A stretch of DNA of 52,449 nucleotides, from positions 1 to 52,449 of the forward strand of contig CALXYN010000009.1 of the NCBI GenBank assembly GCA_944392975.1, read 5' to 3'. The notes under the pieces are model-generated. The model was not told the origin of the DNA, ran no database searches, and saw only the letters and a program-made list of their open reading frames with translations. The position numbers and the translations under genes were made by a program. This DNA comes from an uncultured Spirochaetaceae bacterium. Lineage in GTDB: Bacteria; Spirochaetota; Spirochaetia; Sphaerochaetales; Sphaerochaetaceae. Below are positions 26,791 through 30,897 of this stretch, in pieces; position 1 is the first letter of the stretch; the number at the start of each line of letters is the position of its first letter.

Positions 26791-27390
26791 TTATTTCTTA
26801 TCCAGTCCGATAAGAAAGATTTCAAATGAATCATCGCGCGAAGCCTTCGGTTTGAAGGCTTTCGCTTTCTGGAAAATAGTACGCATTTTCTTCAGTATTT
26901 CCTGTTCTCCACCACCCTGGAATATCTTAATCACCATGTTGCCGTGGGTTTTCAGCTGTTCTTCCGCCAGGAATACGACCTGTTCGGCAAGATATTCAGA
27001 ACGCGTTGTATCAACAATCCTGTTTCCCGTTGTCATTGGAGCGGCATCTGAGATGATGGCATCATATGGGCCTTCCTCAACGAGCTTGGCCCTTATTTCC
27101 TTTGAAAAGGCATCTCCTGTGAACTCTATGACGGTCGGTGGAATGGGATCAAGGGCAAGAGGATTCAGATCCACTGAAACAATCTTTCCTTTTCCTTTTA
27201 TAAGCTCTCTATGGGTATAAAGTGTCCAGGATCCAGGAGCAGCTCCTACGTCGAGTACGGAATCTCCCGGTTTTATCAGCCTTTGTGTGGCATTTATCTC
27301 CTCAAGTTTGTAGACGGATCTTGCCGGGTACCCTTCTTTATGTGCTCTCTGTGTATAAGAATCTGCTTTGTCTCTGCGTGAATTTGCCAT
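26791..27390 (-). CDS. rlmE: 23S rRNA (uridine-2'-O-)-methyltransferase RlmE (FtsJ/RrmJ)
   Basis: 199 aa, typical length. It methylates U2552 of 23S rRNA using S-adenosylmethionine. The SAM motif VLDVGAAPGSW lies near residue 44. The K-D-K-E catalytic tetrad can be traced as Lys in SVYKLEE near 28, Asp in IISDAAP near 114, Lys in MVIKIFQGG near 153 and Glu in DSFEIFLIG near 189. There is no Shine-Dalgarno; a promoter ends 6 nt before the ATG. Confidence 0.93.
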   Translation of the reverse strand: MANSRRDKADSYTQRAHKEGYPARSVYKLEEINATQRLIKPGDSVLDVGAAPGSWTLYTHRELIKGKGKIVSVDLNPLALDPIPPTVIEFTGDAFSKEIRAKLVEEGPYDAIISDAAPMTTGNRIVDTTRSEYLAEQVVFLAEEQLKTHGNMVIKIFQGGGEQEILKKMRTIFQKAKAFKPKASRDDSFEIFLIGLDKK

Positions 27391-27396
27391 AGCGTG

Positions 27397-27425
27397 AGTC
27401 TATACATAGAAAAACGATTGGTCAA
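27397..27425 (-). promoter_or_regulatory. Leaderless promoter of rlmE
   Basis: Minus strand: TTGACC (27425-27420), 17-bp spacer, TAGACT (27402-27397), 6 nt (CACGCT), ATG. Confidence 0.6.
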
Positions 27426-27457: not shown

Positions 27458-27510
27458 AAAAATAAAAAACCGCCGGACAGCATATTGGGGTGGGAGAGAG
27501 CTGTCCGGCG
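27458..27510 (-). terminator. Terminator of small RNA B
   Basis: A 10-bp perfect stem CGCCGGACAG/CTGTCCGGCG (27471-27480 and 27501-27510) around a 20-nt loop. On the minus strand it is followed by GTTTTTTATTTTT, a classical terminator tail. The loop is CT-rich (CTCTCTCCCACCCC on the minus strand), a second stretch able to pair with purine-rich ribosome binding sites. The plus strand also has a T run, so it may act both ways. Confidence 0.85.
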
Positions 27511-27559
27511 TTAGTTTTTTTCACACGTTGCAAGGAGGTATGAAAAACTGTTGCTCTGT
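27459..27559 (-). ncRNA. Candidate sigma-54-dependent small RNA B with anti-Shine-Dalgarno motif
   Basis: Predicted transcript of about 100 nt, starting about 12 nt after the -12 element of the sigma-54 promoter at 27572-27586 and ending at the terminator. The 5' part on the minus strand contains AGAGCAACAG, then a T run, then UACCUCCUUG, whose CCUCCUU core equals the 3' tail of 16S rRNA. This block is shared with small RNA A, 130 bp upstream. No reading frame on the minus strand explains it. It is not one of the standard RNAs (SRP, tmRNA, 6S, RNase P). The start point is inferred from promoter spacing. Confidence 0.65.
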
Positions 27560-27571
27560 ATTATTCTTTTA

Positions 27572-27586
27572 GCAAATTCCGTGCCA
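27572..27586 (-). promoter_or_regulatory. Sigma-54 promoter of small RNA B
   Basis: Minus strand reads TGGCACGGAATTTGC, an exact match to the sigma-54 consensus TGGCACG-N4-TTGC, with the GG and GC pairs separated by 10 bp and followed by T as preferred. Confidence 0.8.
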
Positions 27587-27616
27587 AAACAGTCAAAAAC
27601 AAGGTTGAATTGTTGG

Positions 27617-27691
27617 TAAATGCAAAGACGCCCATAAACAGGCGTCTTTGATACACTAAAAAGGAGGTTTGTTGAAAAAACTGTTTGCTCT
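27617..27691 (-). ncRNA. Candidate sigma-54-dependent small RNA A with anti-Shine-Dalgarno motif
   Basis: Predicted transcript of about 75 nt. The minus strand begins AGAGCAAACAG, a T run, CAACAAACCTCCTTTTTAG, then a 10-bp hairpin CAAAGACGCC/GGCGTCTTTG with an 8-nt loop (27623-27650). The T run after the hairpin is weak (GCATTT), so termination may be leaky and some transcripts could run into small RNA B. Promoter, 5' block and layout are the same as in B, so the two look like a tandem duplication with diverged terminators. Confidence 0.65.
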
Positions 27692-27703
27692 AAAAGTTAT
27701 ATA

Positions 27704-27718
27704 GCAAAATCCGTGCCA
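27704..27718 (-). promoter_or_regulatory. Sigma-54 promoter of small RNA A
   Basis: Minus strand reads TGGCACGGATTTTGC, again an exact match to TGGCACG-N4-TTGC. Confidence 0.8.
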
Positions 27719-27762
27719 ACTTTTTATGTGATTTAACGCGTCTATTTCAAGTTTATTGGAAA

Positions 27763-27790
27763 ACATGTGTGAAAAATTTACACACTATGT
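27763..27790. promoter_or_regulatory. Inverted repeat, candidate enhancer-binding-protein site
   Basis: ACATGTGTG (27763-27771), a 9-bp AT-rich centre, then CACACTATGT (27781-27790): a near-perfect dyad with one bulged T. Its centre is about 85 bp upstream of the predicted start of small RNA A. Sigma-54 promoters need such upstream activator sites. Which activator binds is unknown. Confidence 0.4.
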
Positions 27791-27841: not shown

Positions 27842-28468
27842 ATGAACAGTATCATAAACAGGAGATTCCGTTATACATATTCTAATGCGGCCACAATCAT
27901 CATTATTGTGAACTGTCTTGTCTTTCTTGTTTCCTATCTTATTTCACCTGCACTGACGTATTATCTTGCGATGGTACCTTCAGCTATTGTCTACGGCCAT
28001 TATTACTGGCAATTCGTGACATATATGTTTGTGCATGGCGGAATATGGCATCTCTTTTCCAATATGCTGGGTCTCTTCATATTCGGGACAGCTGTTGAAA
28101 GATCCGTTGGAACGAGAGAGTTTGTACTTTTCTATTTCCTAACGGGAATACTTTCAGGAATAGCTAGTTTCCTTGTATATCTTTTTACAGGCACTAATGC
28201 AATTCTCCTTGGAGCTTCCGGTGCACTTTATGCCGTAATGCTGCTCTTCTCGGTTATCTATCCAAGAGCTATGATATACCTTTTTGGTGTTTTCCCTGTC
28301 CGCGCCCCTGTTCTTGTGCTTCTTTATTTCTGCATAGAGCTTTTCAGCCAGATGGGTTCTTACATGGGAACAGTTGCACATATGACCCATCTTTTTGGCC
28401 TTTTTTTTGCTTATCTGTATGTGGTAATCAGAATGAGGATCCGGCCATTCAGGGTGTGGTTCTCATGA
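27842..28468 (+). CDS. Rhomboid-family intramembrane serine protease
   Basis: 208 aa with six membrane segments. The catalytic serine is in LLGASGALYA (Ser about 126), and the histidine partner is in AHMTHLFG (His 180 or 183). The loop helix motif HGGIWHLFSNMLGLFIFG near residue 67 is characteristic, including the W-x-H-x-x-x-N region. The core six-helix form without extra domains is the commonest bacterial type. It cleaves membrane proteins; the substrate is unknown. Its last 6 bp overlap the convergent adenosine deaminase gene. Confidence 0.88.
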   Translation: MNSIINRRFRYTYSNAATIIIIVNCLVFLVSYLISPALTYYLAMVPSAIVYGHYYWQFVTYMFVHGGIWHLFSNMLGLFIFGTAVERSVGTREFVLFYFLTGILSGIASFLVYLFTGTNAILLGASGALYAVMLLFSVIYPRAMIYLFGVFPVRAPVLVLLYFCIELFSQMGSYMGTVAHMTHLFGLFFAYLYVVIRMRIRPFRVWFS

Positions 28469-30368: not shown

Positions 30369-30425
30369 CCCATTCTACTATCGAAGGTGCGACTGCCAGG
30401 AAGCACCGAAGATAAGGAGAATGGG
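30369..30425 (+). promoter_or_regulatory. Leader hairpin that sequesters the tnpA ribosome binding site
   Basis: CCCATTCT (30369-30376) pairs with AGAATGGG (30418-30425), with inner pairs TATC/GATA and GGTGC/GCACC. The 3' arm covers part of AAGGAG and the first ATG. Such a structure is an established means of translational repression in IS200 elements. Confidence 0.65.
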
Positions 30426-30426
30426 A

Positions 30427-30897
30427 ATGGATAGTGAGAGTCTAGCTCATACGAAATGGAACTGCAAATACCACATAGTGTTCGCGCCTAAGTACAGGAG
30501 GCAGGTGATCTATGGCCGCCTGAGGACAGAGATAGGCAAGATACTGAGGGAGCTGTGCAAGAGGAAGGGAATAGAGCTCCTGGAGGCAGAGGCCTGCCCT
30601 GACCATATACACATGCTGGTATCGATACCGCCGAAGTATAGCGTGGCAAGCGTGATGGGGTACCTGAAGGGGAAGAGCAGCCTGATGATATTCGACAGGT
30701 TCGCGAACCTTAAATACAAGTACGGGAACAGGGAGTTCTGGTGCCGAGGATACTATGTCGATACAGTGGGACGGAACAAGGCTGCGATAGAGAAGTACAT
30801 CAGGAACCAGCTGGTGGAAGATAGGAATGAGGAGCAGCTAGTGATGAAGGAGCTGTTTGACCCGTTTACGGGTGAGCCTGCAAAAAAGGACAAGTAG
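30427..30897 (+). CDS. tnpA: IS200/IS605-family Y1 (HUH) transposase TnpA
   Basis: About 156 aa, the standard TnpA length. The HUH motif is in CPDHIHMLVSIPP near residue 62 (His-Ile-His), and the catalytic tyrosine is in AIEKYIRNQL near 127. The N terminus (HTKWNCKYHIVFAPKYRRQVIYG) is the family signature. The reading frame is intact, so it may be active. I choose ATG 30427, which has AAGGAG at the right distance; the ATG at 30421 is too close to it. Confidence 0.93.
   Translation: MDSESLAHTKWNCKYHIVFAPKYRRQVIYGRLRTEIGKILRELCKRKGIELLEAEACPDHIHMLVSIPPKYSVASVMGYLKGKSSLMIFDRFANLKYKYGNREFWCRGYYVDTVGRNKAAIEKYIRNQLVEDRNEEQLVMKELFDPFTGEPAKKDK

Follow-up and report, generated by a model that had tools for sequence, protein, structure and literature searches.

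A conserved family of predicted sigma-54-dependent tandem small RNAs in Sphaerochaetaceae, with a 5' block antisense to the Shine-Dalgarno sequence and signal-peptide start

The stretch of DNA analysed here (the window) comprises 52,449 nucleotides from an uncultured Spirochaetaceae bacterium. On its minus strand, two full promoter-to-terminator units lie between a divergent upstream neighbour, a rhomboid-like protease gene (27842-28468, plus strand), and rlmE (rrmJ, 23S rRNA methyltransferase; 26791-27390, minus strand). Both genes were named from synteny and from NCBIfam matches that fell below cut-off (rhombosortase/GlpG for the former and rrmJ/RlmE, the best match, for the latter). A sigma-70-like promoter (27397-27425, minus strand), assigned by consensus match only, sits between the terminator of the second unit and the rlmE start codon, which sets rlmE apart from the two units. 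Elsewhere in the window, an open reading frame at 30421-30897 (plus strand) resembles an IS200/IS605-type transposase, as judged by its sequence.

The motif TGGCACG-N4-TTGC, for which ∼0.03 exact occurrences are expected per 52 kb, was located exactly on the minus strand at 27704-27718 and 27572-27586, as an earlier note on this DNA had reported. The sigma-54 promoters designated A (TTGGCACGGATTTTGC, 27704-27719) and B (TTGGCACGGAATTTGC, 27572-27587) are thus exact matches. Each is followed by the shared block AGAGCAA(A)CAG-Tn-CA..ACCTCCTT (27691-27661 and 27557-27532), which begins 12 and 14 nt, respectively, past the promoter C. The block contains CCUCCUU, which we take to be a copy of the organism's own 16S anti-Shine-Dalgarno sequence; the 3' end of 16S rRNA was not found in the loci collected. 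From promoter position, conserved block and hairpin, RNA A is predicted to span 27622-27692 (minus strand, ∼70 nt), with its 5' block (AGAGCAAACAGUUUUUUCAACAAACCUCCUU) at 27661-27691, CCUCCUU at 27661-27667 and a terminator hairpin at 27623-27650. RNA B is predicted from its promoter, block, hairpins and fold z-score to span 27463-27559 (minus strand, ∼97 nt), with its 5' block (AGAGCAACAGUUUUUCAUACCUCCUU) at 27532-27557, CCUCCUU at 27532-27538, and a terminator hairpin with the conserved loop CUCUCUCCCACCCCA at 27471-27510. Both hairpins fold as claimed, that of B carries a strong T tail (27462-27470), and no open reading frame lies downstream ahead of either. The tail of unit A is weak in the window copy (GCATTT) and reads TTTTT in relatives.

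Units of type A are short: CCUCCUU sits in a U-rich, linear stretch, and the terminator has a small loop. Those of type B are ∼95 nt long and end in a terminator with a large loop, CUCUC(U)CCCACCCC. Fold z-scores against shuffled sequences were -2.6 for A and -5.5 for B. The hairpins of B units were not aligned by MAFFT and RNAalifold, and covariation was examined by arm-swapping in place of these programs. The 60 distinct B units show 51 versions of the terminator 5' arm; on average, these pair with their own 3' arms at -22.7 kcal/mol and with swapped arms at -10.2 kcal/mol. The corresponding values for A, which has 52 distinct 5' arms across relatives, are -16.4 and -6.4 kcal/mol. The terminator stems are therefore maintained through compensatory change. 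Since the stems of B vary in this manner while the strongly conserved loop sequence persists, the loop is taken to be functional. A further hairpin is predicted by folding in RNA B (hairpin 1, 27517-27547, minus strand; UUUUUCAUAC paired with GUGUGAAAAA, and CUCCUUGCAAC in the loop). It places CUCCUU in its loop, is missing from A units, and gave no covariation in the test of own versus swapped arms. Note that the U run of RNA B is predicted to fall inside hairpin 1, so that part of the block would be hidden.

Conservation of the promoter-block-hairpin unit in relatives had been set beforehand as a refutation test for the small RNA claim. To define its extent, a pattern consisting of the promoter and ACCTCCTT, with AGAGCAA omitted, was scanned over 60 relatives. 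It matched 18 genomes, each of them from the same genus, and AGAGCAA(A)(A)CAG-Tn was present in every match though it lay outside the query. The converse pattern, the block without the promoter, was scanned over 84,980 species (one genome each) and returned 115 stretches. A -24/-12 site was found upstream of 129/129 evaluable spirochaete copies of the block (those with enough upstream sequence), versus 0/18 chance copies in other phyla. For the 129 evaluable units, the spacing from the promoter GC to AGAGC was mostly 11-17 nt. The joint recurrence of block and promoter is far beyond chance.

A sequence-only model of promoter and block was then run on 139 genomes of the order. The unit was recovered in 121 of these, representing 17 of 22 genera, all within the family of the window, with at most four copies per genome. 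When the 18 negative genomes were searched less strictly, only partial, weak matches were obtained (best E 0.002). The host family consists of gut and sediment spirochaetes, and the matched names include Sphaerochaeta halotolerans, Bullifex porci, Pleomorphochaeta and Ca. Ornithospirochaeta. Units occur solo or paired, pairs being mostly 115-190 nt apart. Rhomboid and/or rlmE genes are found within 1.5 kb in 78 of 94 loci, and many of the remaining loci end at contig edges. One unit with all its parts (sigma-54 site, block, and a terminator with the CUCUCC loop) was found on an IMG/VR contig filed as viral (L358:2600-2850); this contig is probably misfiled, or is prophage-adjacent host DNA. 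The opposite strand was also considered as possibly coding (AAGGAGG..TTG AAAAAA..). Among relatives, however, the A and T runs differ by one-base indels that break any frame, and coding readings of either strand were excluded for this reason.

The gene rpoN, whose presence the earlier note had proposed to check, was found in the genome of the window and in 136 of 139 genomes of the order. The proposal of tandem sibling small RNA genes with sigma-54 promoters is thus supported by exact sites, conserved units and rpoN, the transcripts themselves being predicted. The earlier note did not include an additional element, the palindrome GTGTG-TAAATTTTT-CACA(C) at 27767-27785 (minus strand), which is a candidate upstream activating sequence ∼48 bp upstream of promoter A. 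In 82/96 cases, a first or solo unit has the 17-bp pattern TGTG-N9-CACA, with at least seven of eight matches, within 160 bp upstream, and 46 perfect copies were observed versus 0.45 expected from shuffles. With one mismatch or less allowed, it is found at a single place in the window's own genome, 27767-27785. On these sequence grounds, the palindrome resembles an enhancer that serves a single dedicated activator.

The same genome encodes five clear sigma-54 activators. One of these, an NtrC-type response regulator (G000:C2:14176-15504; hereafter the C2 activator), has its gene next to that of an AtoS-like kinase. Within the genus of the window, the C2 activator was detected in 41/43 genomes positive for the small RNAs versus 0/5 negative genomes (Fisher 1.2e-5). 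For all genomes, the values were 106/121 and 10/18, respectively (p 0.0025). These statistics should be read with the caveat that genomes are not independent by descent. The C2 activator is apparently missing in 15 positive genomes and present in seven negative genomes (ten in the tally above), and many assemblies are fragmented. From this co-occurrence, we infer that the C2 regulator is a candidate activator of the small RNAs. In five genomes of the genus (G013, G030, G093, G022 and G005), the small RNAs and the C2-type activator are both absent and PspF is kept; rpoN is kept in four of the five, with no rpoN match in G030. This looks like joint loss or absence of the RNAs and the activator.

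Further plausible sigma-54 sites in the window's genome precede pspA, two hsp20 genes, a gene for a sigma-70-family factor and a gene for an HTH protein. At contig C33 (positions 5399 and 7232), two pspA-like genes flank a gene for a PspF-like activator, and each of the two has a sigma-54 site; relatives share this arrangement (L246, L247, L254 and L255), with an upstream motif unlike the palindrome of the small RNAs. Other sites are found ahead of two Hsp20 genes (C6:5082), before the gene of a 326-aa protein whose only recognisable domain is a weak HTH match (C43:5551), and, together with a Shine-Dalgarno sequence, directly ahead of the sigma-70-family factor gene (C88:3491). The arrangement of the last site suggests a cascade from RpoN to a sigma factor, like the RpoN-RpoS pathway of Borrelia. 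The remaining one-mismatch sites in the genome lie inside open reading frames and were taken as chance. Given the pspA, hsp20 and sigma-factor sites, the sigma-54 regulon looks like an envelope/heat stress programme with a sigma cascade, and the small RNAs may answer the same signal. Comparative analyses have been used to argue that sigma-54 tends to govern the bacterial exterior (PMC3162934).

The chance matches of the block outside spirochaetes provided a clue to possible targets. In Clostridia and others, the opposite strand of these matches reads as a Shine-Dalgarno sequence followed by AUG-AAA-AAA-CUG-(G)UU-GCU, the start of a gene for a signal-peptide protein. The whole 5' block is antisense to a Shine-Dalgarno sequence plus a typical signal-peptide start (SD...AUG-AAA-AAA-CUG-UUU-GCU), and the reverse complements of family variants encode MKKLFAL, MKKTVAL or MKKLLL starts. 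Pairing energies with the 5' domain were calculated for 1317 gene starts from ∼2/3 of the window's genome. Simple heuristics were used to assign both the starts and the signal peptides, and 118 of the genes were scored as carrying one of the latter. Controls were 60 shuffles of the flanks in which CCUCCUU was kept. For RNA A, signal-peptide genes were ranked with an AUC of 0.705 versus 0.545 ± 0.037 in the shuffles, and occupied 24 of the first 50 places (5.7 in controls). RNA B gave an AUC of 0.607 versus 0.493 ± 0.036. In two other genera, tested with their own RNAs, AUC values were 0.671, 0.694 and 0.700 versus 0.53-0.55.

Parts of the block were then altered separately. Shuffling AGAGCAAACAG alone lowered the top-50 count from 24 to 16.8 (0/45 shuffles as high) and left the AUC unchanged. 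When the U run and CA were shuffled, both the AUC and the top-50 count dropped; pairing of the U run with A-rich MKK starts supplies much of the predicted preference. The preference vanished (AUC 0.528) with the block placed 3' of CCUCCUU, and scrambling CCUCCUU left it in place. Ten top candidates were checked, of which seven matched periplasmic substrate-binding families of several kinds and one a patatin-like phospholipase. The pairing with ribosome-binding sites through CCUCCUU suggested in the earlier note fits, and is extended to the whole 5' block by the computed target preference. The CT-rich loop of B, also suggested there as a specificity element, fared differently: it is strongly conserved, but it showed no excess complementarity to translation starts of the window's genome relative to shuffles, and may have some other role. 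No Hfq was detected by the Pfam model, which a very divergent Hfq would escape, and pairing is therefore probably Hfq-independent.

We favour, with moderate confidence, a reading in which the locus encodes trans-acting, sigma-54-dependent small RNAs that repress translation of signal-peptide and substrate-binding protein mRNAs under a C2-type activator. Conservation establishes the promoter, palindrome, RNA unit and terminator as sequence elements; transcription, activator binding, repression and the signal are what we infer beyond these. The locus would specify two such RNAs (elsewhere one to four). An NtrC-type two-component activator, for which G000:C2:14176-15504 is the candidate, would bind TGTG-N9-CACA and drive RNA polymerase-sigma-54 at the -24/-12 sites. 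As judged from sequence and covariation, each RNA would start at or just before AGAGCAA and end at the terminator hairpin. Pairing would be in register, CCUCCUU with the Shine-Dalgarno sequence, (U)n-CA with UG-AAA-AAA, and CAG/AGAGCAA with codons 4-7, and would thereby favour mRNAs with Sec-signal-peptide-like starts (MKKLFAL, MKKTVAL, MKKLLL). By computed preference, many such mRNAs would encode ABC substrate-binding proteins and lipoproteins. Pairing would block 30S binding, and less exported protein would be made while the sigma-54 stress programme (PspA, Hsp20, alternative sigma factor) is on. The RNAs are best read as Hfq-independent small RNAs of envelope or nutrient stress. The broadest form of this proposal, that one short Hfq-independent RNA family reads the Shine-Dalgarno sequence together with Sec signal-peptide codons and lowers the export load during sigma-54 stress across Sphaerochaetaceae, is put forward tentatively, with somewhat more doubt than belief.

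Other explanations were weighed against this reading. CCUCCUU could act as a general anti-Shine-Dalgarno sequence, making the RNAs a broad translation damper or ribosome mimic with no preferred target class. Besides AGAGCAA, CCUCCUU is the most constant part of the unit, it would pair with any strong Shine-Dalgarno sequence, and the loop of B is likewise C-rich. However, the flanks are conserved as much as CCUCCUU, the signal-peptide preference derives from the order of the flanks and disappears once the block is relocated, and it survives the scrambling of CCUCCUU itself, so that we regard a general damper as unlikely. It is improbable that the 5' block is instead a protein-binding or structural element (hairpin 1 with its CUCCUU loop), in which case the RNA might be a protein sponge or regulator and the antisense match to gene starts incidental. 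Hairpin 1 does fold well in many B copies, and a strongly conserved hairpin 2 loop on a changing stem fits a protein site; yet covariation does not support hairpin 1, which is missing from A units although they share the block, and no known protein site was recognised.

The identity of the activator and the independence of the RNAs from rlmE were considered likewise. Another enhancer-binding protein (PspF or a C38-type regulator) might activate the promoters and place the RNAs in the phage-shock response proper, and the sigma-54 sites of pspA and hsp20 in the window's genome are in keeping with this. Within the genus, however, PspF was found in 26/43 genomes positive for the small RNAs versus 5/5 negative genomes, being missing in many of the former and present in all of the latter, and in five genomes the sigma-54 sites of the psp loci are not accompanied by the palindrome. 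PspF as the activator is contradicted by both observations, and we consider this alternative rather unlikely. Finally, with rlmE downstream at most loci, the units could form a cis-regulatory leader or attenuator of that gene. This we hold to be highly improbable: both units are complete from promoter to terminator, a promoter-like site precedes rlmE itself, and this gene is 5 kb distant at one locus (L123) and on the opposite strand at another (L057), a layout that does not fit a leader of rlmE.

The statement in the earlier note that no described family has this design in spirochaetes was borne out: no Rfam model scored above its gathering threshold, and this held when matches with E values up to 10 were considered. 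For example, ErsA/Pseudomon-1 (RF01719) scored 21.5 bits (E 0.046) versus a gathering threshold of 50 bits. There was no Rfam match to Qrr, GlmY/GlmZ or CrcZ, and the candidate activator scored 337 bits with the LuxO model (cut-off 800) and 356 with the GlrR model (cut-off 763). A literature search for Sphaerochaeta and small RNA found nothing relevant. To our knowledge, very few trans-acting small RNAs have been described in spirochaetes other than Borrelia. The units constitute a new RNA family of a familiar type, distinct from the related families with which it was compared. It combines in a new way sigma-54 promoters, a spirochaete host and a 5' block that is antisense to the Shine-Dalgarno sequence and signal-peptide start.

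The closest parallels are found in rhizobia. AbcR1 and AbcR2 (alpha-r15) are tandem small RNAs with anti-Shine-Dalgarno motifs that repress ABC transporter mRNAs, often those of periplasmic substrate-binding proteins (PMC8844928). The present RNAs resemble them in being tandem homologues in one intergenic region, in carrying an anti-Shine-Dalgarno motif and in their targets, which are predicted here. AbcR1/AbcR2, however, are alphaproteobacterial, with LsrB and RpoH1 promoters rather than sigma-54 and with known Hfq biology, and their motifs CUCCUCCC and UUCCCCUC do not occur here, where the motif is CCUCCUU and no Rfam match was obtained. NfeR1 has conserved anti-Shine-Dalgarno motifs in variable stems, is Hfq-independent and acts on substrate-binding proteins; it and the other alpha-r14 'cuckoo' RNAs share with the present family an ultraconserved anti-Shine-Dalgarno motif, freely varying stems and a tie to an NtrC-type system (PMC10746234). 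Unlike the present RNAs, NfeR1 belongs to another phylum, has a sigma-70 promoter repressed by NtrC, and contains three hairpins each with CCUCCUCCC unpaired; here, one CCUCCUU was found and the second loop of B is CUCUCCCACCCC. Qrr RNAs of Vibrio are also sigma-54-dependent siblings with an NtrC-type activator, LuxO (PMC2680268), but they are Hfq-dependent and differ in seed and targets, and the activator here falls far below the LuxO cut-off. RybB and MicA of the sigma-E envelope stress response (PMC1804206) are similar in that small RNAs under a stress sigma factor lower the synthesis of many envelope proteins; they differ in being dependent on sigma-E and Hfq, in acting on porin mRNAs and in belonging to Gammaproteobacteria. 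By analogy, the spirochaete RNAs are best read as sigma-54-controlled functional counterparts of the AbcR1/2 and NfeR1 RNAs of rhizobia.

If the target reading is true, anti-Shine-Dalgarno small RNAs controlling ABC transporters would have arisen convergently in rhizobia (AbcR/NfeR1) and spirochaetes, and the RNA would in effect sense that an mRNA encodes an exported protein. What appears to be present is a family-wide small RNA with promoter, enhancer site and candidate activator in a lineage without detected Hfq. At least two of its hosts, Bullifex porci and Sphaerochaeta halotolerans, are cultured, and the small RNA is therefore directly testable.
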